From assembly GCA_003024175.1 (NCBI GenBank), contig MDYQ01000303.1, forward strand, positions 1-27,158: a stretch of 27,158 nucleotides of DNA, in the 5' to 3' direction. A program made the position numbers and the translations under genes. Under the pieces are notes generated by a model that was not told where the DNA came from, searched no databases, and was given only the letters and a program-made list of their open reading frames with translations. This document shows, piece by piece, positions 3,837 through 27,053 of this stretch (position 1 is the first letter of the stretch; each line of letters opens with the position of its first letter). Source of the DNA: Planoprotostelium fungivorum (Eukaryota; Evosea; Variosea; Cavosteliida; Cavosteliaceae).

Positions 3837-5177
3837 TCACAAGGAGAAGCTCTGTCTGAATTCCATCGCTCGACCGAGGGGCGTTGCCTCCTTGAGTCTC
3901 ATGTCATCTGATCCGTGAGATCGGATGATGCCCGTGTAAGCACCCATCATGGCAGAGTGAAGTTGAAAGAGAGTGGCCTCTGCGACGTCCTCCACAGAAG
4001 CCAAGAAGGATCCATCATCGTTCACACGCACCATCTTCTCGTTGACACATGCGATCATGACGTAGTAGCCGTCGGCTCTCTGTTTGAAACGGAAGGCCTC
4101 CCAGACTCCAGCGGTAGCCGAGATGGCAGCGAGGGTTCCGTTGCCTCCAGTCTGTGCCGTGACGAATTGTTCGAGGGTGAGATCTTGGATAGAAACCGCA
4201 TGAGGGTATAGACGGTTGGCCACCAGGCGGTAGTTGAGAGCGCTGGTTACATTGGAAGGACCGGCTGTGAGACGCAGTTCTGGGCGACTGACACCGACGA
4301 AGCCACCATTCTTGATGCGAATGGCCAAGCGGCTGGCGGTGGTGACGGTGAAGCGCGATGCAACGTGAATGTCACTGGTGTCGGCGACGAGAAGTCCGGC
4401 CGAGTTTCGACGCAGGTAGAGACCGTTGTATGTGCTCTGGACGGTGGATGATTTCGTCTCTTCATCGTAGCGAATGGTAAATGCCTCCCAGATACCGCCC
4501 GAACGTCTGACTGCTGAGGGCTGAACGTTGGGTTCGGCGGTGATGAAGTGACCGTTGGACATATCTACGAGTGATTGGCTTCCTTTGAGATTCCAGTTGC
4601 TGACAGTCTGGAAGAAAGAAGGCTTTGTGCTGAAGGCGCTGGTGCTCTCTGAGTTGGATGAGACAAAGAGGCCAGTGTCAGCCATCTGTATGGTGATCTG
4701 ATCGAAAGGTTGAAATTCGAATAGAGAAGCTTCTTCTCCTCTGTTGGCCTCGGGGCGAAGAGTGCCGTCTTCTTGGACGGTGAGTGCTCTTCCTCTAAAC
4801 ATGATGTTCCAGTAACCGTTGGGCTGTTGTTGGAAGTGAAATACTTCTGTAGCGCCGGCTTGTGTCTGTGCTGCGACGGCTTCTCCTGATTGCATGGAAA
4901 GATAGAGACCGTGCGACAGATCTCGAAGGGTGAAGCACTCTGTGCAGTCTTGGTCACTCTCTCCAAATTGGTAGTGCGTGGCAAAGTTGAGTGTCGATTT
5001 GTGCGATGAGATGATTCGATCGTGATTGCGTGTCTGGAGGTACATTCCCGTCTTTACAGATCGGATAAGGAGGACTTGGTGCAGAGGTGAAGCCTGATTA
5101 GCTTCTCCTGTGACAAATGCAAGGAGTGAGAATACGATTACTGCGAACGTGATGCAGCCCCGCATTGTGGCGGACAT
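3837..5177 (-). CDS. Secreted beta-trefoil (fascin/agglutinin-like) repeat protein
   Basis: A single uninterrupted 446-residue frame. The N-terminus is a signal peptide: MRGCITFAVIVFSLLAFVTG with a likely cut before EANQ; Met5 is an equally good start. The rest is a set of repeats about 40-50 residues long, each with a hydrophobic-G-x-hydrophobic-L strand (TGMYLQT, HGLYLSM, TGLFVSS, NGLYLRR) and a W/V-x-x-F element. Two copies are clear, GIWEAFTIRY and GVWEAFRFKQ. This pattern matches fascin-like or ricin-like beta-trefoil folds, which bind carbohydrate or actin. Because of the signal peptide I infer an extracellular or endomembrane lectin-like role, not actin bundling. It has no introns although its neighbours are full of them. 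A GTGAG...CCAG segment just before the ATG (about 5178-5222) could be a 5' UTR intron. The fold assignment is by repeat pattern only; ligand unknown. Confidence 0.75.
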   Translation of the reverse strand: MSATMRGCITFAVIVFSLLAFVTGEANQASPLHQVLLIRSVKTGMYLQTRNHDRIISSHKSTLNFATHYQFGESDQDCTECFTLRDLSHGLYLSMQSGEAVAAQTQAGATEVFHFQQQPNGYWNIMFRGRALTVQEDGTLRPEANRGEEASLFEFQPFDQITIQMADTGLFVSSNSESTSAFSTKPSFFQTVSNWNLKGSQSLVDMSNGHFITAEPNVQPSAVRRSGGIWEAFTIRYDEETKSSTVQSTYNGLYLRRNSAGLLVADTSDIHVASRFTVTTASRLAIRIKNGGFVGVSRPELRLTAGPSNVTSALNYRLVANRLYPHAVSIQDLTLEQFVTAQTGGNGTLAAISATAGVWEAFRFKQRADGYYVMIACVNEKMVRVNDDGSFLASVEDVAEATLFQLHSAMMGAYTGIIRSHGSDDMRLKEATPLGRAMEFRQSFSL

Positions 5178-8218: not shown

Positions 8219-11200
8219 ATGTCTGAAGAAGGACACGAGAATCCCACACCTCCACCTTTCGAGCCCGATGAACATGGATTGGTGGTGATGCCGGACGAGT
8301 TATCAGAGGAGGAGCTGGAAGTTTCGAGGAGAATGACGCAGGAATCACTGTTGAATTCGACCCATTCGAAGAAGGAGGAACATGCGAGGTCCAGAGCACC
8401 AACATTGAGAAAGACGATTGCAATCAGTGTAGACAGCCCGGGAACCGTTCCAGACGAGCACATACGATATCCCAACTGTCCCATCGTCGAAGTGAGTACA
8501 TCACAATTGTCCATTTTCTGGATCTCAACTTCTCTCAGCTGGACCATTCCTTCCACGAGTATGAATATGTGATCCAATTCAGAGAGTCCAAGAAGCACTC
8601 ACAACGTTTCCTCGATTCGGCCGATGATAAATGGGACTCTGCCAGCTTCCAGGAAGAATACGCAGTACACATCCACATGAATGAGATCTACTTCAAATTG
8701 AAGGAGAAGGGACTCATCGTCCATGTCGTACGTTCAGAGAGAGACGTAGGACTTCTCAGCATGCTGGTCGATGCCCCCGAAGAACTCATCGAGCGTACGG
8801 CTGAGATGTTGCAGATGGAGTTACCTCTGAGGGTGAAGGGTGTCTTCACCATATGTGATACTCATCATCTCATACAGGAAGAGTTGGGAGGGGGATGGGC
8901 GGCTTTCGATCGAAAGCACAAGAAGAGTTTCAAGCCTTTTCACACGGACAACCGACACAATGTGCGTTCTCGATGCATCGCGAAAGATGGACTCTGATGT
9001 TGCCCCAGGTCGAGGACACACAGAAGGGCCACGGAACCTTTGGAGAATTATTCCACTCGAGAGTATTCGAAGAGGAAAACCCTGAGGTCATTCCAGAGCA
9101 CAGCATCGAGATGGAGGTGTCTTCTCATGTCAGCAAGACAGGTGATGATGTCATCTCTTCTCCTGTTCCATCATCTCTCCATCGCATCTCATCATCGCGA
9201 TGAGAACAAAATCCAAAGTATTCCGTTTTCAATTCCGATGAAACTGACTCGTTGTAGTTCCCATCGACTGCAGCGACGAGGAACACACTCGTTTCTTCAA
9301 TTCCGCCATGCGTCAGCGGATCGTCTTCGCACTCATCACCGAAGACAGCTACACTCCTACAGGAGGTGCCGGTGTCAGTGAGTCCTTTCTCTCATCTTCT
9401 CATCATCACCATCTGTCCATCATCATCATCACCTCATCTTTCTCATCACCTTCTCACACCCTCAGATCTGGACCGCCTGATCGAAGACAAGACCGTAGAG
9501 AAATATTTTCCAGTGCATCATGATGCACCGAGGATTCACCTCTTAAACACATGGACAAAGACTCTATTCAAGAGACAGCCCATCGACCGCATTCGAGAGT
9601 ATTACGGGGAGACCATCGCACTGTTCTTCGCCTTCTTGGACTTTTCTCTCTTCTACCTCATCTTAGCTTCCATCGTAGGTGTACCCATCTACATCGTCAC
9701 GTGAGTCTGAAATTTCACTCGAATTTCGACGAGATTTCTCATTACGTATCAGCGAGATCTACCAGCGTACGAAGGATCAATCAGAGAGCTCCACCACCGA
9801 ATGGCCCGCCTCGGCTTATTCAGTCTTCCTTGCCATTTGGGCCACCGTTTTCCTTAATTTCTGGAAGAGGAAGAACGCCGAACTCAACCACAAGTGGAAC
9901 ACCATGGATTTCTCCATGAAGGAAGTGCGTACGACGTACGTAACGCGAAATCTCACCGAAATTTCAGTCCACGAGAACGACCTACCGCGGCCGCACTCGT
10001 TACGGTTTCGAGCAGGATGACATCTGGATCGATTGGCCGACAGAAACCGATGAGAGTGGCAACACTGTCTACTCCACCGTCCTCAACATCAAACCGAGGC
10101 AGTCGAGATATTTCGACCCGAATCGAAGGGTATTGAGGATGTTTGCATCTCTCATTCCAATGTCTATCATGTGTGGTATCGTGGTCATCATCACCATCTG
10201 CATCTTTGCTCTGAGGCTGTACATTGCCAAGAATGCGAGCAGTATCATTGGAAGTAATTACATCGGGAGTGTCGTCAATGCCATCACGATTGTGATCTTC
10301 AATGCGATTTACACCGAGATTGCCGTGATATTGACAGAGTGGGGTGAGTCATTTCATTTCACTTCATTTCACTTCACTTATTTATTTCACTTCACTTATT
10401 CATCTCACTTCACTTATTTATTTCACTTCATTTGGAAGGAGCTCCTTCCAATTTTTATTGATCTGATTGAATTGTCTTCCATATCTCACTCTCAATCGTT
10501 CCGTTTTATTTCGATTTATTTCTTTTCCTCACATTTCTTACGCCCAAACAGAAAACCACCGCACCCAGAATGGATGGGACAACATGTTCATCCTCAAGCA
10601 ATTCATCTTCCAATTTGTAAACTCTTACACATCCCTCTACTACATTGCATTCTTCAAGGGAAGCAAGACGAGACTATTCGGTGTCATCGGTTTAGAGGAC
10701 AGCTGTGCCACGGCGAGGGAGCAGAATCCTTTTGGAGGCTGCGTGGATGAATTGGCACAGCAGCTTCTCATCATCTTGGTCGTGAATACGGCAGTCAACC
10801 AGGTGATCATCACATTGTCACATCACAATCACATCACATCACTCACATCATCCGATCACATCACACTTGATCATCATCTAATCACATCACATGATCACTC
10901 ACTCATCACATCATGACATCATGGAGAATGGACAGAGACTGAACCCCTCTCAGTTGACTTCGGTAGTTCTCCCCGTCGTGTTGAACAGTTGGTGGGCCGT
11001 CTACCTCTTCTGCTGCGGCCGTGGATCGAAAGAGCACAGACTACCAAAGTGGGAGAAGGAAGGAAGGAGAACTCAATACACACAATTACTGGCAACCGAA
11101 AAATTCACCCAGGTGACCATCTACAATTCAAACTACAACGAGCCATTCGAAAATGAACGGATGGATTTTATTGTTTATATTCGAGACTGAAGGATGTAGA

Positions 11201-11892
11201 TCGTCATTCAGTATGGGTTCATTGTCCTCTTTGCTGCGTCTTTCCCTATCGCCCCTTTCATCGCGCTCATCAACGTCATCCTCTGCATCAAGACCTATTC
11301 TTTCCAGATGTTACAGCTACTCAACCGACCCAACTATAGATGTTCGAACGACATCGGTATCTACTATTGGATCTTAGAGGTGCAGAGTCATCCGCCGTGA
11401 TGCCATCTTCTGAAATGAGATCAGATCTTGGGTGTGATGGCAGTGATTACCAATTGTTTCCTCATCGGATTCACTCATCAGGCCGTTTTCAAGATGTTTC
11501 AGAGGAACATCAGTGACTTCTCGGGTCAGGCCTTGGGTGTCTTAATCATCGTGATGGCATTAGAACATCTTCTTCTCATCGTCAAACTGTTGGTTGAGCT
11601 GGGCATCCCGGACGTCCCGCAGAAAGTCCGTAAAGACATCATCTGGCAAGATTTCCTTCACGATGAAGTTTACAATCAGATGGCGGAGGCGCAGAGAAAC
11701 AAGGAGGGAGGAGGCAGAATGAAGAACCACCGCCTCAAGTTCATCACGAAACAACACAACAAGCACAAGAACGCCGCGGAATCACAGAGCTCGAATCTGA
11801 ACGTCTTAAAGAGGTTGCCGACCCTGTTTGGCATACGAAAGTCCACGATGAAAGACTCAAAGATATCGCTGCGAGAGACGACTTCACAATAA
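8219..11892 (+). CDS. Anoctamin/TMEM16-family membrane protein
   Basis: TMEM16 proteins are dimeric phospholipid scramblases or anion channels, usually Ca2+-activated. Exons 8219-8491, 8539-8961, 9009-9141, 9258-9377, 9466-9700, 9753-9924, 9968-10343, 10552-10802, 10936-11112, 11200-11379 and 11425-11892 join to 935 residues. A cytosolic domain of about 340 residues is followed by the family signature REYYGETIALFFAFLDFSLF leading into TM1. Later landmarks are the charged loop WKRKNAELNHKW, TM3 (LIPMSIMCGIVVIITICIF), the GWDNMFILKQFIFQFVN segment, TM7 (IVIQYGFIVLFAASFPIAPF), NDIGIYYWILE, and the last helix ending EHLLLIVKLLVELGIPDVP. A basic tail follows. Junctions at 10935/10936 (alternative acceptor a few codons on) and 11113-11199 are the least certain. 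Acidic residues that bind Ca2+ in TM7/TM8 are not seen. The TAA stop overlaps AATAAA. Confidence 0.93.
10370..10433 (+). repeat. 18-nt tandem repeat in an anoctamin intron
   Basis: Three and a half copies of a unit like CACTTCACTTATTTATTT, at 10370-10387, 10388-10405, 10406-10423 and a partial copy to 10433, in intron 10344-10551. This intron is about four times the usual length, and the repeat explains part of the excess. Confidence 0.8.
10803..10935 (+). repeat. CATCA-rich low-complexity intron
   Basis: Anoctamin intron made mostly of CACATCA/TGATCA permutations. It is typical of the CATCATCA or GATGATG texture of many introns here and has no coding potential. Its 3' boundary is ambiguous because of several AG choices near 10935-10953. 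Confidence 0.6.
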
Positions 11893-19499: not shown

Positions 19500-22400
19500 A
19501 TGAAGGTCCTCCTACTTTTACTCCTAGTTTCGACTTCTTTCACCTCTCTCGATGCAACCAGCCCTGACTCTGAAACATGTTCAATCTCTGCCTCAGTGGA
19601 GACACACCATCATATGCCAACGAACAATATGAGAGCTATAGGTATAGACACTAGAGAAGAATATAATGTGAAAGGAAAGGATCCCTATGTTGCAAGTATA
19701 CCCAAATCAGAGTCAGCTCAAGAGCTCGAAATATTGTCAGAGGAGCAGGTGATGCCCACTCGCAATTCAACTTCTGACCATGACAGATCCAAGCGATATA
19801 CAACAGACTGCCTCCGTTAACACCACGCATCAACAGAGGCGATGAGTTTCACAAGAGGCCAGACACCCCTACACCACCCACAGCTGAGAACAAGAGTGAG
19901 AACGTCCACTCTGACGAACATCGTCCTCATGTGTGCTGCAGTCCAAATGCCTTTTCCACCACAAGGAGAAGAACCACAGAGGACTCTGACAGAGCCTTCG
20001 AAACAAAAGTTGAAAGTGTTATCGAGCCGACCAGAGGGAAAGATCCAATCGTGTGATCGAGTGACTCTGAACTTCTCTCATTCGCTCACTGCCATCACTG
20101 ATCTCGATCAGTTGGATGACGCAGCGGGTGAGTGTATCCTCTTTGCCACTGCTGAACCACAGCAGAGAGAGTGTTCACGATCGAGCCCAGACCTGAAGGA
20201 AGATTCCAATTCGAAGGAACGAACACCGTCACTTTCACTTCCACTAAACCTTTCCCCAAGGCCACACGATACACGGTCAAGGTGGGATGACACGCCGTCT
20301 CAAAGGCCCTGACAGGTCACCCAAAAGAGACTGAACGGACACCAGGTGTCACCTGATCTACAGACACCAACGGGAATTAAGATGGAAGGAGCATTCGAGA
20401 CAAGCTTCACCTTACCTCCCCCCACTCTACTCAGTTATCATCCACGTCACGAGTCCATCACGAACACGACTCAGATCTTTAATGTCTGCTTCGATCAGAA
20501 GGTTGATACCGCCGAAGTGAGAGAGTCTTCTTCCTCTCCAAGATCTCACGCGCCACGATCTCACAAGTCGTCAGTTCATGAAGGGATTGAAGCTTGATTA
20601 CGAATGGTGGAAGCACCCTCTGGGATGGTGGGAGCAACACCTCAGATTGTGCAGAGAAGATGAGATGGGTAGAGGGAGGTGAAACACTCCTCACGTCTCT
20701 TCATCTCACCACACTTCAGTACCTGGGGAGAGAGGGACAAGTGTGTCGCCTTCGTGGTGGAAGATCTTCCGGTGGATACACCCTACACGATCACATTTGA
20801 TGAAGGCATCGTGAGTCCTCGCGCGTCGTTTGTTGTTGACACTTTCAGCCATCTATGGAAGGACCGATGTTGTCATCTACGAGAAGAGTTTATGCATCCT
20901 ATCGAACGTATGCTCCACTCAAAGTCATCACGAACGAAGATCAAGGGTATCTGTTTTATCAGATCCGATTCAATAATCGCTTGGATTTTCACCGCGATGT
21001 GGAGAGAGATGTCACCGTTGAGCCTCCCACATTGGTCGATATGTATGGCGACTCCATCGAATTCATGATACATCCGAGAAAGACGTACAGAGTCAAGGTG
21101 CACACGTCTTTGAGGGACGTATACGGTCAGAACCTCTCTACACCCTTGGAGTTGGAAGTGAAAGTGAGAACTAAGACGGGTCCACGTGTCATCACTCACA
21201 GTCACAGGGTAGACCCATTCCCCGACTGGCTTCTCCCTTCACCTGGTATGGAGGACTCGTCACCTTGGACCCTTCTTCATCCGACACATCCGATCTGTGG
21301 TCGTTCCCCTTCTTTGCCGATCATCATGAGAAGGTAAATGGTGTAGAGCGAGACGAGAGTAACGCACCGTAGCTGCACGTGAACGTCAGGAGGCTATCGA
21401 TAGAAGATATCATCGCATACAACACGGAGAAGGCCAAGGTGGGAGCAGACATCTTCTCTAACTCACTCGCACAGCTCGAAACGTTGGGAACATCCATCAC
21501 CGCCCACGAAATCGAATTGAACGGCTCTACTGAAGGACAAATCCACCAAGTTGATCTAAAACCAGCCATGAGAGACATTCTGAATCATCTGGGCATGGCT
21601 GCCATCATTATCAGGGGGAACAAGGATGAGATCACATCTATCGTACAGATGACCAAACTGTCCGCTTCCGTCTTTCCTCACGGAGAAAACGCGACGGTTC
21701 TCGTGAGGAGTCTAGTGGATCAATCGGTGGTGAAAGATGCCACCGTTCGATTGGGAGGGAAGGAGTACAAGACAGACGAGAATGGCTCGACAGTCATACA
21801 ATTGTTCTCCTTAGAACATCTGGGATGGATGTCGGTCACAAAGGTGGCGTACCAATGGTCTGTGACACTACTAAGTGTTGAAAGGGAGAAGACCAGATGG
21901 CCATGAAGGTACCGATGGCTAATGTTCTATCACCCAATCAGAAAGTGTACGGCGTGACGGACAGAGGGCTGTACAGGCCACAAGAAGAGGTTCGTTGAAC
22001 GAGTGGGATCGATCGATGATACGACGCAGGTGCATGTCAAGTGCATGGTGAGAGATGTGACTGAGAGAGGATTACAAATGCCTCCCAGCGGAACGAATAT
22101 AACCATCATCGTCCGATCTCCACGTCAAAAAGGTGACATACATCATCACTTGCAACCTTTCGTGATTCTATGTGCAGAAATTTTCGTGTCCGAGTACAAG
22201 ACGAACGAACACGGAAACTTTGACTTTTCCTTTCCTCTGGCTGCAGAATCTGATCTGGGAGATCATACAATCCGAAGGGTAGACGCAGATGGGAGTCACG
22301 ATGAGATCTGTACCTTTTCCGTCCACGAGGTCACAGGAATTTTCTCAGATATTCCAAATAGGCTGATGTCGATTAGTTCCGCAAGCCCGAGTTCAAGAGC

Positions 22401-25400
22401 TCGGCTCAAGTGACATCCACTGGTCCCTTCATCATGAACGGAGAGGCCACCGTCTCCACATCTGCCTCTTACTACTCTGGAGGTCCACTGAGTGACTCCA
22501 GCGTGTCGTGGAGAATCAGTACCACCAAGTCTCACTTTTCACCTCCCGGTTGGGGCGGCTTCTCATTCTGTGACAACAAGTTTTCCTTCCACAATGCGTA
22601 CGAATATCATCATGACGTACATGTGGAAGGAAAGACGGATCAGACAGGAGAGCACTCGACAAAGATCAATTTGACTGGATACAAGGACGAGCTTCAGCCG
22701 GTGAGGCTCCATATCACGGCACTCATGCAAGATATCAACCGACAGACACTCTCGTCGAGCACCTCTCTGTTCGTCCATCCCGCCACTCTGTACGTGGGCA
22801 TCAAAGCGGAGAAGGTAGACAACGTGTCAGGTGTACCTCTGACTCATCTTCAGGTGTTGGCCAGAGCGGAAGAGGACATCTCTGTTGATTATGTCGTGAC
22901 GAACATCAAGGGTGAAGCCGTTGAGGGTAGAGAGATTGAGGTGAGATGGTGAGATGAAAATGTATGAAAAAATGGTTAGATATTGGTGACTGCGGAAGAG
23001 ATAAAGAACGGTGAAGGAGAGTATGTCACAATCAATAAGGAGATACAAAGTTTCACGAAGAAGAGCGGAAACGGAGTACAGACATTCCACATCACCACAC
23101 CACAGAGTGAGCATTTCAACTTGATCGATAATCGAACATCTATTCGCATATCTCGATCACCTTCATCCCTCTGATGGAGACCTAGGTGGTCCACACACGA
23201 TCCAAGTGACCGTGAGAGACGTTCAGAATCGAACGCAGCTGACTACGACCACCCTGTACGTCATCAATGATGAACAGAAGAACGATGAGAGAATGAGCAA
23301 TCAGAAGGGATCCCATAAGAAAGTCGCTCCAATGGAAGAAAAGATCGATGTTATGGCCGACAAACCATCTTATCAGGTGACATCCAGAGATGACAAATGA
23401 CTGATGTCGGTAGGTGGGAGATGTAGCCGAACTTCTGTTCAAGAACCCTCTCTTTCCATCTAGAGGAGGTTATATCATCGTAACAAGCACGAAAGTGTTA
23501 CCAATGGTTCCGATCACTTTCACGAAGAACGAAGAGACTGTTAAGTTTACCGTGAGTTGAATGAATAGAAAGAAGATTAGGTAATAGCCGTAGATCACGG
23601 AGGACATGATGCCTGGTATTCGAGTACAAGTGATGAGTGAAGGCTACAGTAAGACACAGCAGCTACCTGTATGGTCTATTGGGTCACAAGATCTGTCTGT
23701 ATCCACGGAGACAAAGTCACTGACAGTCTCACCCTCTCCTGCAGCAGAGAGCTCCACGCCTGGCTCATCTACAAAGGTGTAGATCACCGAATCTCAATTA
23801 TCATTTACTCCTACAGGTAAGCATACAAGTGAAAGACCATAAAGGGGCGAATGTCAGCGGTGCTGAAGTGACACTGATCGTGGGTGAGTCATATGATAGA
23901 GTTCGCCACGCTGACACGATCAGTGGACGAATCCATTCTATCAATGAGCGACTATAAGATCCATGATCCCCTCCTCTTCTTCTACCCTCCTAACATAAGA
24001 TCTGTCACGTTAGTTTCCAGTCGAAGGTCCATCGTAGCTCAGAGAGATTTCGATCCACGATCGTACCAATTAGATCGCTCTTCTCACATTTTGGGCGGTC
24101 ATTCAGCGTATTCGGAGGGTAATATTCAGCGTTCGGTCGTCAGAGACAACTTTAACTCTTTGGCCGCTTGGATCGGTTCCTCCATCACGGATGACAAGGG
24201 TCAAGTCGAGTTGGACGTCAAGATGCCCGATACTCTCACCAACTACAGGTGAGCTCACCATCGTTGACTTACACAAGAATGACGATGATCATAGGATATT
24301 CGCTCTGGCATCTGAAGGCAGAGATCGATTTGGAGTGGGAGAGTCAGAGATAAGAGTCTCTCTTCCTCTCGCTCTGCGTCCATCTATTCCCAGGTTCTGT
24401 AACTATGGTGACCGTGTGAGGCTGTCCACTGTAGTGGTCAATCAGACACCACAGAAGAGAGAAGTGAGATACGATCGATGGTCTGTCTGACGTGTGGAGG
24501 TGTCCGTTGTGATCAGAAGTGATCAAGTGAAGTTTGAGGGAAGCAGCGGTTATCGTCTCACTCTGGAACCTAATGGAAGAACTGAGGTGGTTTTCTTCCT
24601 TGATTTCAGGGTCTGACGATGTGATAGGTTCCATTTATGGGAATAATCAATCATACTGGTAAAGTCTCCATCCAGGTGGGAGAAAGTAAGATCAAAAGAT
24701 ATTGATACGGGACAGTTTGCCATGAGCAGTGAAGAGATGCAAGATGCAGTGACCATCGAGATACCTGTCTACACTCCTTTCACCTCAGAAGATTTCGCCA
24801 CATACGGCAACACAGCAGAGACGACTGTCATCTCACAGACCATCCAGCCACCATCCAATGTCATCCCCAAGGTGAGTCGCTTGTGCACTGTTACTCTTCG
24901 TGATCTTTGTTCTTGACGATGACACGCCATCAGTTTGGACGACTGGAAGTGACTACCAGCTCTACCCTACTGTCCAGTCTGCTTGACTCGTACAAGTACC
25001 TCTACAGATATCCCTATGGATGCAGCGAGCAGGTCGCATCGAGGCTCTTGTCCAACGTAATGATCGGACCTCTTCTCTCTTCCTTCGCCGGCACAGTCGA
25101 TGGACTTCCCAGCCAAAAAGAGCTAGAGAAGAGCATGCAAGATGACGTAGACAAGTGAGAGGAGAGAGGAGAAGAGAAGATGACGTTGTACAGGCTGAGG
25201 CAGAGAGAAGTGAGAGGAGGGTTTCGATTCTGGGATCAAGGGGAGGTATCACACTATGTGACAGTCCACTGTCTGCATGCTCTCGTTCGATACAGAAAGA
25301 CACTCGTGAGATCATCGCTACATTGCACAGCCTTGTAACAAGGGCCAGAATGGAGATGAATGGTCGACAAGTCATTTGATCGACAATGTCATATCATCTT

Positions 25401-27053
25401 TCCCATCTTGGATTGCATCCGTGCCAAAGGATAGAAGAAGCTACATTCACATGTACTTCTTGGTGTGTCTCATTGAAATGAACGTAATTATGACGTGGAG
25501 CAGTACGTCTGCACTCTGCACCACGGTAATTCCGATCAGTACTACGCGAAGGCGGCAGAATTGTTAGGTGACGACTATTCCGAGGCTCCTACCGAGCTGT
25601 TATGCTGGGCATTACAAGTGAGGAATTTCGATTTCATTCAGAACTCAGAACATTCAAATCAAGTGCACACCAAGGAGGAAGTTTGAAGAGGAACATAGGT
25701 TCTGCACGGAAAGAATGCAGAGAAAGAGAAAGAGCTGCTGAGAGTACTCATGAATCGCATCACAGAGAGTGCAGACAAGGCACACGTTCGAGAGAATAGA
25801 AGGCTGGACCACGATGTGTTCGTCTATCTCCTTGGAAACGATGCAAGAGGAGTGGGCGTTCTGTTGGAAACACTGATCACGGTGTCGCCTGACCATCACA
25901 TCATTCCCAAGCTGGTCAGGGGTGAGACAGATCATTCACATGTAGAGTGGATGGAATGACGAGAGACAGGTCTGATGAGTGGTCGAAGCAGCAGAGGCAT
26001 CTGGGCCAACACACAAGAGAACTGTTTCAGTCTTCTGGGTCTGCGAGCTTACTTTGACAAGTACGAGACCGATGTGCCAGACTACAAGGTGAACCAGTGG
26101 TACGGACAGACATATGTGGGCACGACACAACACGAGGGAAGAGACACAGAAGTGAAGAGCATCTCAGTGCCCATGGATGTGTTACTCTCTTCCACGTGAG
26201 TCATCCCATATTCCATACTACATGCTGCATGAGGAAAAGAGCTGAAGGGAAGCAGTGGACAGAAAGAGCTAGTGATGGAGAAGAAGGGAAAGGGGAGGTT
26301 GTACTACCGTGTCGGTCTCACGTATGCCCTTTCCAACCTCACGGTAGACTCTAGAGATCGTGGCTTTGAGGTGACAGAAGAGAGGATGAGAAGATGAGAG
26401 AGCTGACAGAGAGCAGATCAGTCGTCAGTATGTGGCAGTGGACGACAAAGGGGATGTTGAGAAGAGAGAAGATGGAACGTGGAAGATAAGGATGGGAGCG
26501 AGAGTGAAGGTAGAGATCACAGTGAAGAACAGAGATCCCAGATATCACGTGGCACTCGTGGATAATCTACCTGCAGGTGAGACACAGATCGACTTTCCTT
26601 TTGTTTCATCTTCGTTCGCGATTGCACTTTATAAGATGATTGAATCTATGGATGACATCTTACGTTGAGATTGAATGAGAAATAGGCATGGAAGCACTGA
26701 ACAGCTCCATCAAGAACACAGAGAGTATTCCCTCTTCTGAAGCGAGATCTTTCTGTTATCTTCCATACTTCCATTCTGATCACGAAAACCTGAGGGATGA
26801 CAGATTGGAAGTGTTCTCCTCTTATGTGTACCCAGGTCAATCTCCCTCATGGTCATCATCTATATCGCATCTCTACATATGATGTTCTGCGTGTTTTGTG
26901 ATGACTGAGAGGGACACAGGAGAGAAGAAGTACGAATTTTACGTGAGGGCCACAAATGGAGGAGTGTTCACAGCGCCACCAGCAAAGGTAGAGGAGATGT
27001 ACAGCCCTGAAGTGTTTGGAAGAAGTGCCAGCGACAAGTTGGTCATTGAATAG
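19500..27053 (+). CDS. Secreted alpha-2-macroglobulin-like protein of bacterial type, thioester-containing
   Basis: A2M proteins trap proteases through a bait region and an internal thioester. Thirty-four exons: 19500-19748, 19787-20008, 20043-20127, 20166-20281, 20346-20516, 20575-20678, 20720-20810, 20849-21163, 21208-21333, 21373-21843, 21885-21989, 22030-22132, 22178-22329, 22377-22940, 22980-23106, 23186-23376, 23414-23551, 23594-23776, 23817-23883, 23924-24248, 24295-24463, 24500-24586, 24628-24685, 24735-24871, 24934-25154, 25194-25305, 25343-25462, 25504-25617, 25699-25921, 25970-26195, 26256-26370, 26417-26576, 26686-26835, 26920-27053. The product is 1976 residues, all phases consistent. 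It has a signal peptide (MKVLLLLLLVSTSFTSL), an N-terminal domain with DRVTLNFSHSL, then TDRGLYRP (675-682), VVDESIL, LRPSIPRF, the thioester YPYGCSEQ (Cys1482-Gln1485), GIWANTQEN, and a C-terminus GGVFTAPPAKVEEMYSPE. These landmarks match YfhM-like bacterial A2M rather than animal A2M/C3. No lipobox, so it is predicted to be freely secreted. Exons 2-3 and 23-24 junctions are the least certain. Confidence 0.92.
25012..25032 (+). other. Thioester motif (YPYGCSEQ end) of the A2M gene
   Basis: TGC at 25021-25023 (Cys1482) and CAG at 25030-25032 (Gln1485) are spaced C-x-E-Q, as needed to form the beta-cysteinyl-gamma-glutamyl thioester. The preceding YPYG is typical of bacterial A2M; animal proteins usually have GCGEQ. 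Confidence 0.85.

Follow-up and report, generated by a model that had tools for sequence, protein, structure and literature searches.

How did a large protein built on a bacterial plan come to be encoded, in a protist, by a gene divided into 34 exons? The question is raised by a bacterial-type alpha-2-macroglobulin (A2M) gene of Planoprotostelium fungivorum, located on the forward strand at 19500..27053 of contig MDYQ01000303.1 (assembly GCA_003024175.1; positions 1 to 27,158, the 27,158-nucleotide stretch that we call the window). An initial annotation, made from the letters of this DNA, had explained it as an old bacterial gene that was captured, filled with introns and turned into a secreted protease trap. 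Our follow-up partly supports this interpretation. The presence of an intact, intron-rich gene for a bacterial-type A2M is confirmed. We consider it probable that it is one of three intact genes of this type, derived by capture from a bacterium, gain of more than 30 introns, duplication and conversion between copies, and that it serves as a protease trap. The gene is called the window copy below, and C316 and C248 denote the contigs that carry its two intact paralogues.

Gene structure, domains and thioester site

We rebuilt the gene independently of the initial annotation, using a splice-aware gene finder trained on codon use followed by hand correction against the two paralogues; the final model combines reading frame, paralogue alignment and GT..AG boundaries. 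It has 34 exons and 33 introns, the same counts as before, and encodes 1969 residues (the earlier figure of 1976 was nearly right), with no internal stop between the start ATG at 19500 and the stop codon at 27051–27053. All 33 introns run from GT to AG; their lengths are 36–109 nt, with a median of 42 nt, and weak donors occur at introns 10, 11 and 22. Two other splice settings were rejected, a strict consensus by itself, which skipped the DRGLYRP exon, and a loosened one, which put other exons in the wrong place.

Pfam profiles were run on the spliced protein, with matches listed at E ≤ 1. Big_5, MG2, A2M_BRD, A2M and bMG10 all score above their cut-offs (Table 1), with MG2, A2M_BRD and A2M in that order and the C-terminal bMG10 domain at 95 bits against a cut-off of 26.2. 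Big_5 corresponds to the N-terminal Ig-like repeat noticed initially. Below cut-off lie bMG5, which the bacterial relative L092 itself matches at 26.3 bits, and TED_complement (16.8 bits against 22). The same listing holds no match to A2M_recep or to a Ras domain, and no NCBIfam family was matched at E ≤ 0.01. A search of the whole genome for A2M_recep found no match anywhere, controls included, and so says nothing about whether the domain is absent.

All five motifs named in the initial annotation recur in the rebuilt protein: DRGLYRP (residues 672–678), VDESIL (1190–1195), LRPSIPRF (1325–1332), YPYGCSEQ (1477–1484) and, at the C-terminus, PPAKVEEMYSPE, whose last residue is 1956. A six-sequence alignment shows no variation at Tyr1477, Tyr1479, Cys1481, Gln1484, Met1952 or Tyr1953, and these six residues are kept in the window copy and both paralogues. 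They correspond to the thioester pocket of E. coli A2M, where, in the accessible part of the source, the thioester domain contributes two tyrosines and the final domain a Met-Tyr pair to cover the thioester (PMC4498604).

The N-terminus of the window copy is hydrophobic, with a Kyte-Doolittle peak of 2.97 over 10 residues, and no lipobox was seen in the leader by eye, in agreement with the plain signal peptide first proposed; cleavage after residue 19 is a guess. Because the leader has no lipobox, we do not class the protein as a membrane-anchored periplasmic lipoprotein of the YfhM kind. A simple pattern detects a lipobox-like motif in 8 of the 11 members checked of the bacterial subfamily described below, and the linker that follows it is homologous between the protist proteins and the bacterial members (LSEEQIQAIYNRLPP vs LSPEEIQAVLDRLPP). 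The start ATGs of C316 and C248 have a context similar to that of the window copy. Neither model begins with an obvious signal peptide, peak hydropathy being 1.06 and 1.26, respectively, against 2.97. Upstream of each start lies a hydrophobic frame that may be part of a missed exon, at a distance of 137 nt in C248 and 761 nt in C316. Leaderless thioester A2Ms, as these two models imply, would be odd in a eukaryote.

Bacterial relatives and descent

A genome collection yielded at least 591 pattern matches, of which 560 were confirmed and the best 80 kept. Top among these best 80 of 560 is a Caldilineaceae metagenome-assembled genome (MAG; L012, CATOTS010000032.1), 33% identical over residues 79–1969, with the next match by E-value at 26%; the gene frame of L012 is broken in two. 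Within its class of Chloroflexota, 125 of 150 genomes match at E ≤ 1e-20, and the best sampled match reaches 903 bits and 36% identity over residues 68–1969. In its phylum, 4 of 301 genomes match at E ≤ 1e-110 (best 831 bits). Phyla beyond Chloroflexota are labelled only by the record used as the starting point of each search: the phylum of a Corallococcus genome, presumed Myxococcota, gave 43 of 195 at E ≤ 1e-90 (best 787 bits), that of an Acidimicrobiia MAG, presumed Actinomycetota, 8 of 296 (555 bits), and that of an Ignavibacteriae MAG 16 of 247 (411 bits). These scores therefore indicate that the closest subfamily is centred on, and not confined to, Chloroflexota. Plasmid-borne bacterial A2Ms gave 247 matching records, and the 40 listed are 19–25% identical.

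In the PDB, E. coli YfhM scored 74 bits (2.5e-20), against about 35 bits (about 2e-8 to 3e-8) for CD109 and alpha-2-macroglobulin entries. The bacterial-type architecture claimed initially is borne out. Likeness to YfhM along the whole length, also claimed, needs qualifying: the YfhM alignment covers residues 670–1558 and a weak C-terminal piece, whereas the best Chloroflexota-class A2M covers nearly the entire chain, and the closest relatives found are Chloroflexota-type A2Ms.

To place the three copies, we examined 122 loci, dropping L041, L053 and L078 as too short and L106 as the same gene as L012. A large tree of the remaining 118 bacterial rows and the three copies (121 rows; quick search on 703 C-terminal columns) put the copies within a set of 35 rows, 32 of them bacterial, at a Shimodaira–Hasegawa-like approximate likelihood ratio (SH-aLRT) support of 100. 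A careful search was then made on full-length proteins (32 rows, 1887 columns), comprising the three copies and 29 of the 118 bacterial rows, namely 20 from the subfamily (19 of the 32 in the supported set, and L119) and nine outgroup rows, with L012 left out. Here the copies group with the 19 subfamily members (support 100/100), and L119 falls outside. An approximately unbiased (AU) test, made once the tree had been seen, rejected a clade of the 20 bacterial subfamily rows that excludes the three copies (p = 3e-7). Several rows in the trees have odd composition or long branches.

Among the bacterial A2Ms sampled, the three copies are shown to nest inside a subfamily that spans Chloroflexota and the presumed Myxococcota and Actinomycetota phyla. 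From this position and the AU rejection we read a transfer from a bacterium to a eukaryote, without fixing the donor phylum or the date. The phylogeny called for initially was to include animal and protist A2Ms; it was run with bacterial rows and the three copies, and on that footing the proposed bacterial origin (nesting at 100/100) holds up. The proposed filling with introns (33 in the window copy) is supported by the gene structure.

Paralogues, conversion and the proposed trap

The initial annotation described one gene; it is intact, and a search of the genome (36.86 Mb, 471 contigs) corrects the number to three intact copies, with PF00207 matching at three places. In our models the C316 paralogue (L004 and L005) has an open frame of 1950 residues in 38 exons and the C248 paralogue (L006) one of 1935 residues in 37 exons. 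When the window introns are projected straight onto the DNA alignment, with the end of intron 4 as it stood before its correction, both paralogues read GT..AG at the two boundaries of 30 out of 33, the exceptions being 4, 6 and 23. The final models place 31 of 33 at the same position (within 3 columns) and in the same phase in both. These counts are not fully independent because the paralogue models received a bonus for agreement with window-copy exons and several window junctions were picked with the paralogues in view. Intron 15 is matched in C248 only, the aligned C316 site still reading GT..AG in the projection, and intron 23 was either gained in the window copy or lost in the ancestor of C316 and C248. 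Six introns of C316 and four of C248 are unmatched in the window copy; a few paralogue junctions are doubtful, such as a 33-nt intron near the C248 end. As the paralogues carry matching introns, chance is ruled out as the source of the gene model.

The ratio of non-synonymous to synonymous substitution rates (dN/dS; Nei-Gojobori) is 0.29 between the window copy and C316, 0.37 between it and C248, and 0.22 between C316 and C248. The window copy and its paralogues are under purifying selection.

Two regions stand out when the copies are compared. One is a 577-base tract, introns 29 and 30 included, over which the window copy matches C248 base for base; it spans 586 alignment columns, some of them gapped in both. 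Among the other introns compared between these two copies, 26 of 31 show 27–72% identity, introns 20, 24, 25 and 31 show 84–95%, and intron 23 is missing from C248. The longest identical tract shared with C316 is 102 bases. Recent gene conversion between the window copy and C248 is the simplest reading of the tract, and the further high-identity introns suggest more than one event.

The other region is the presumed bait segment (about residues 1209–1261, 53 codons), where dN between the window copy and the two paralogues is 0.77 and 0.85. Between C316 and C248 it is 0.20. The next 200 codons have dN of 0.04–0.07 over all pairs and of 0.05–0.07 for the two pairs with the window copy, and the highest value in any 150-codon stretch for these two pairs, 0.44, is below that of the bait segment. 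With dN/dS below 1 in the segment, constraint has loosened or is shifting there, and relaxed constraint serves as well as selection for change; positive selection is not claimed.

On the reading that we prefer, an ancestor would have taken the gene from a bacterium of the A2M subfamily seen in Chloroflexota and the presumed Myxococcota and Actinomycetota. The captured gene would have gained more than 30 spliceosomal introns and then been duplicated, with conversion between the copies. In E. coli A2M, according to the part of the source available, a disordered segment is released when the bait is cut, the protein shuts around the protease, and its CxEQ thioester turns reactive (PMC4498604). By the mechanism proposed for the E. 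coli protein, a protease that cut the bait segment of the window copy, which is presumably secreted, would cause the protein to close on it, and closure would expose the Cys1481–Gln1484 thioester for covalent bonding to the protease. Since the bait segments have diverged, the copies might, more speculatively, answer to different proteases. A protease trap is the best reading of the window copy in our analysis. We suggest more tentatively, and with considerable doubt, that the host derived a small trap repertoire of its own from one captured gene: three intact thioester traps with different baits, machinery partly homogenised by conversion, a decayed remnant, and some copies possibly lacking classical secretion.

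Several points weigh against the preferred reading. Bacterial sampling was partial, most of the group searches having drawn samples, and the gene structure was read from DNA. The place of the copies inside the subfamily is tentative (87/78), the branch that leads to them is long, at 1.95 changes per column, and the AU test came after the tree. With bacterial A2Ms and the three copies as its rows, the tree leaves room for more than one transfer, for passage from one eukaryote to another, or for a eukaryote that held the gene earlier. That C316 and C248 show no obvious leader is odd for a secreted trap. The second pocket tyrosine is phenylalanine in three of the four bacterial relatives displayed (L092, L095 and L117), and L117, from the phylum of the Corallococcus genome, has no thioester cysteine (NSTEQ, against GCSEQ in the window copy), so that thioester chemistry is not fixed in the subfamily. 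Lastly, the bait-segment dN/dS of 0.31–0.59 comes from a poor alignment.

Two alternatives deserve discussion. The first, vertical descent of the A2M from an early eukaryote, or its wide distribution among protists in place of a transfer particular to this lineage, draws on the long stem, on a tree without other eukaryotes, and on the COG2373 A2M-like protein reported in Dictyostelium in the accessible part of PMC2430557. Yet the copies fall inside the bacterial subfamily, with L119 outside and the alternative topology rejected, and a 2008 search with the Dictyostelium protein, as far as that source could be consulted, returned diverse bacteria and one eukaryotic entry, also from Dictyostelium (PMC2430557). 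We think this alternative unlikely. The second accepts the bacterial origin and makes the protein an opsonin, whose thioester, activated by cleavage, tags microbes for uptake in the manner of mosquito TEP1. The intact thioester and pocket would suit such a role, and TEP1 is described in the available part of PMC5489563 as tagging bacteria for phagocytosis; that our host feeds on bacteria is a guess. Retention of A2M_BRD with a divergent bait segment, the lack of an A2M_recep match at E ≤ 1 and kinship with bacterial A2Ms, of which the E. coli protein is presented as a protease trap in what is available of PMC4498604, speak against it, and we give this function a similarly small chance.

A degenerating family, with a window copy that no longer functions, is very improbable. 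The bMG10 profile matches at seven places in the genome, two in each of the three genes and one extra, and the extra match is a decayed partial fourth copy (L129; C248:2727-3814, +). It has an in-frame stop within an exon-like stretch and has lost the thioester domain, since sequence from around residue 1315 is joined to sequence from around residue 1915. The window copy itself, with its frame open over 34 exons and the dN/dS values above, is not decaying as far as could be tested. Still less credible is an animal-type A2M, C3 or TEP protein that merely resembles bacterial ones: MG2, A2M and bait domains are common to the superfamily, and CD109 and alpha-2-macroglobulin entries do match, but bMG10 is present, A2M_recep is not matched at E ≤ 1, and YfhM scores twice as many bits in the same PDB search. 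Animal affinity, which the initial annotation had named as fatal to its reading, is not seen within these tests.

Bacterial contamination or an assembly chimera, to which the bacterial closest matches might point, is the least probable of all and is refuted by 33 introns, 31 of them common to paralogues on two other contigs. The neighbours agree. Six of nine other open reading frames scanned in the window reach Pfam cut-offs (fascin, anoctamin, RhoGEF, Ras and, twice, OPT transporter); of the other three, one has no match, and two, an FAD-type fragment and another piece of anoctamin, stay below cut-off. A eukaryotic contig scanned exon by exon should give this pattern, and neighbours of eukaryotic families argue against bacterial contamination. 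Two loci of the window may be noted in passing. At 3840-5177 (-), what seems to be a single exon holds an open frame of 446 residues that has fascin domains and begins with a hydrophobic N-terminus, and at 10133-11892 (+) lie exons of an anoctamin-like protein.

Table 1. Coordinates of the window copy and its features
Feature	Position	Strand	Basis or remark
Bacterial-type A2M gene	19500..27053	+	34 exons, 33 introns, 1969 residues
Exons 1-6	19500-19748, 19787-19895, 19942-20127, 20166-20281, 20346-20516, 20575-20678	+	gene model
Exons 7-12	20720-20810, 20849-21163, 21208-21333, 21373-21843, 21885-21989, 22030-22132	+	gene model
Exons 13-18	22178-22329, 22377-22940, 22980-23106, 23186-23376, 23414-23551, 23594-23776	+	gene model
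Exons 19-24	23817-23883, 23924-24248, 24295-24463, 24500-24586, 24628-24675, 24716-24871	+	gene model
Exons 25-30	24934-25154, 25194-25305, 25349-25462, 25504-25617, 25699-25921, 25970-26195	+	gene model
Exons 31-34	26256-26370, 26429-26576, 26686-26835, 26920-27053	+	gene model
Putative signal peptide, residues 1-19	19500..19556	+	hydropathy peak; no lipobox by eye
Big_5 bacterial Ig-like domain, residues 144-242	20013..20411	+	Pfam 4e-7; span includes introns
MG2 with DRGLYRP, residues 666-758	21942..22305	+	Pfam 2.3e-17
bMG5, residues 783-886, below cut-off	22425..22736	+	Pfam 8e-5, 23.4 vs 26.5 bits
A2M_BRD bait-region domain, residues 1051-1197	23347..23946	+	Pfam 2.5e-17
Presumed bait segment core, residues 1221-1260	24016..24135	+	very different among the three copies
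A2M (PF00207), residues 1271-1358	24166..24511	+	Pfam 1e-17
Intron 23, 40 nt, private to the window copy	24676..24715	+	comparison of the three copies
Thioester motif YPYGCSEQ, residues 1477-1484	25009..25032	+	alignment
Tract identical to C248, 577 bases, introns 29 and 30 included	25718..26294	+	DNA alignment
bMG10 with thioester-pocket Met-Tyr 1952-1953	26438..27011	+	Pfam 5.4e-27

Comparison with known systems

Among the entries that literature searches listed, one is a direct precedent for a bacterial-type A2M in protists (PMC2430557). The accessible part of that report describes two Dictyostelium proteins of the COG2373 A2M-like kind, of which only the first carries a cpRAS insertion, and proposes horizontal transfer, so that our idea has not been new in outline since 2008 (PMC2430557). 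They resemble the window copy as bacterial-type A2Ms of a eukaryote for which transfer was proposed; DdiCPRas2 differs in its 3933 residues and circularly permuted Ras insert, the window protein having no Ras match, a comparison made by description (PMC2430557, in part). As far as literature listings show, the conversion tract, the likely donor subfamily and an intact family of three copies that differ in their baits are unpublished. A candidate donor subfamily is thereby added to the 2008 Dictyostelium report of Elias and Novotny. The locus offers a well-supported case of a large multidomain protein that moved from bacteria to a eukaryote, and one family suited to the study of intron gain, conversion and bait divergence. 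If the trap works, thioester protection in a protist would have arisen from bacterial stock, separately from animal complement and A2M. The reverse direction has also been considered: Budd et al. are said to have proposed in 2004 that bacterial A2Ms came from animals.

Among bacterial proteins, L092 of the Chloroflexota class, the best bacterial relative, is 33% identical over 1881 aligned residues and has the same main Pfam domains, N-terminal linker, bait region and CxEQ site; apart from the broken frame of L012, genes of its subfamily are single-frame, unlike the window copy with its introns. E. coli YfhM (ECAM) shares the A2M core and thioester-pocket residues, but is 20% identical, falls outside the subfamily in the large tree, where it serves as outgroup, and is an intronless bacterial lipoprotein. 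Animal A2M, C3 and TEP proteins have the superfamily domains and the thioester in common with the window copy, as well as, in A2M, the bait region. The window copy departs from them in carrying bMG10, in giving no A2M_recep match at E ≤ 1, and in reading GCSEQ where the animal motif, in the available part of the source, is GCGEQ (PMC5489563).

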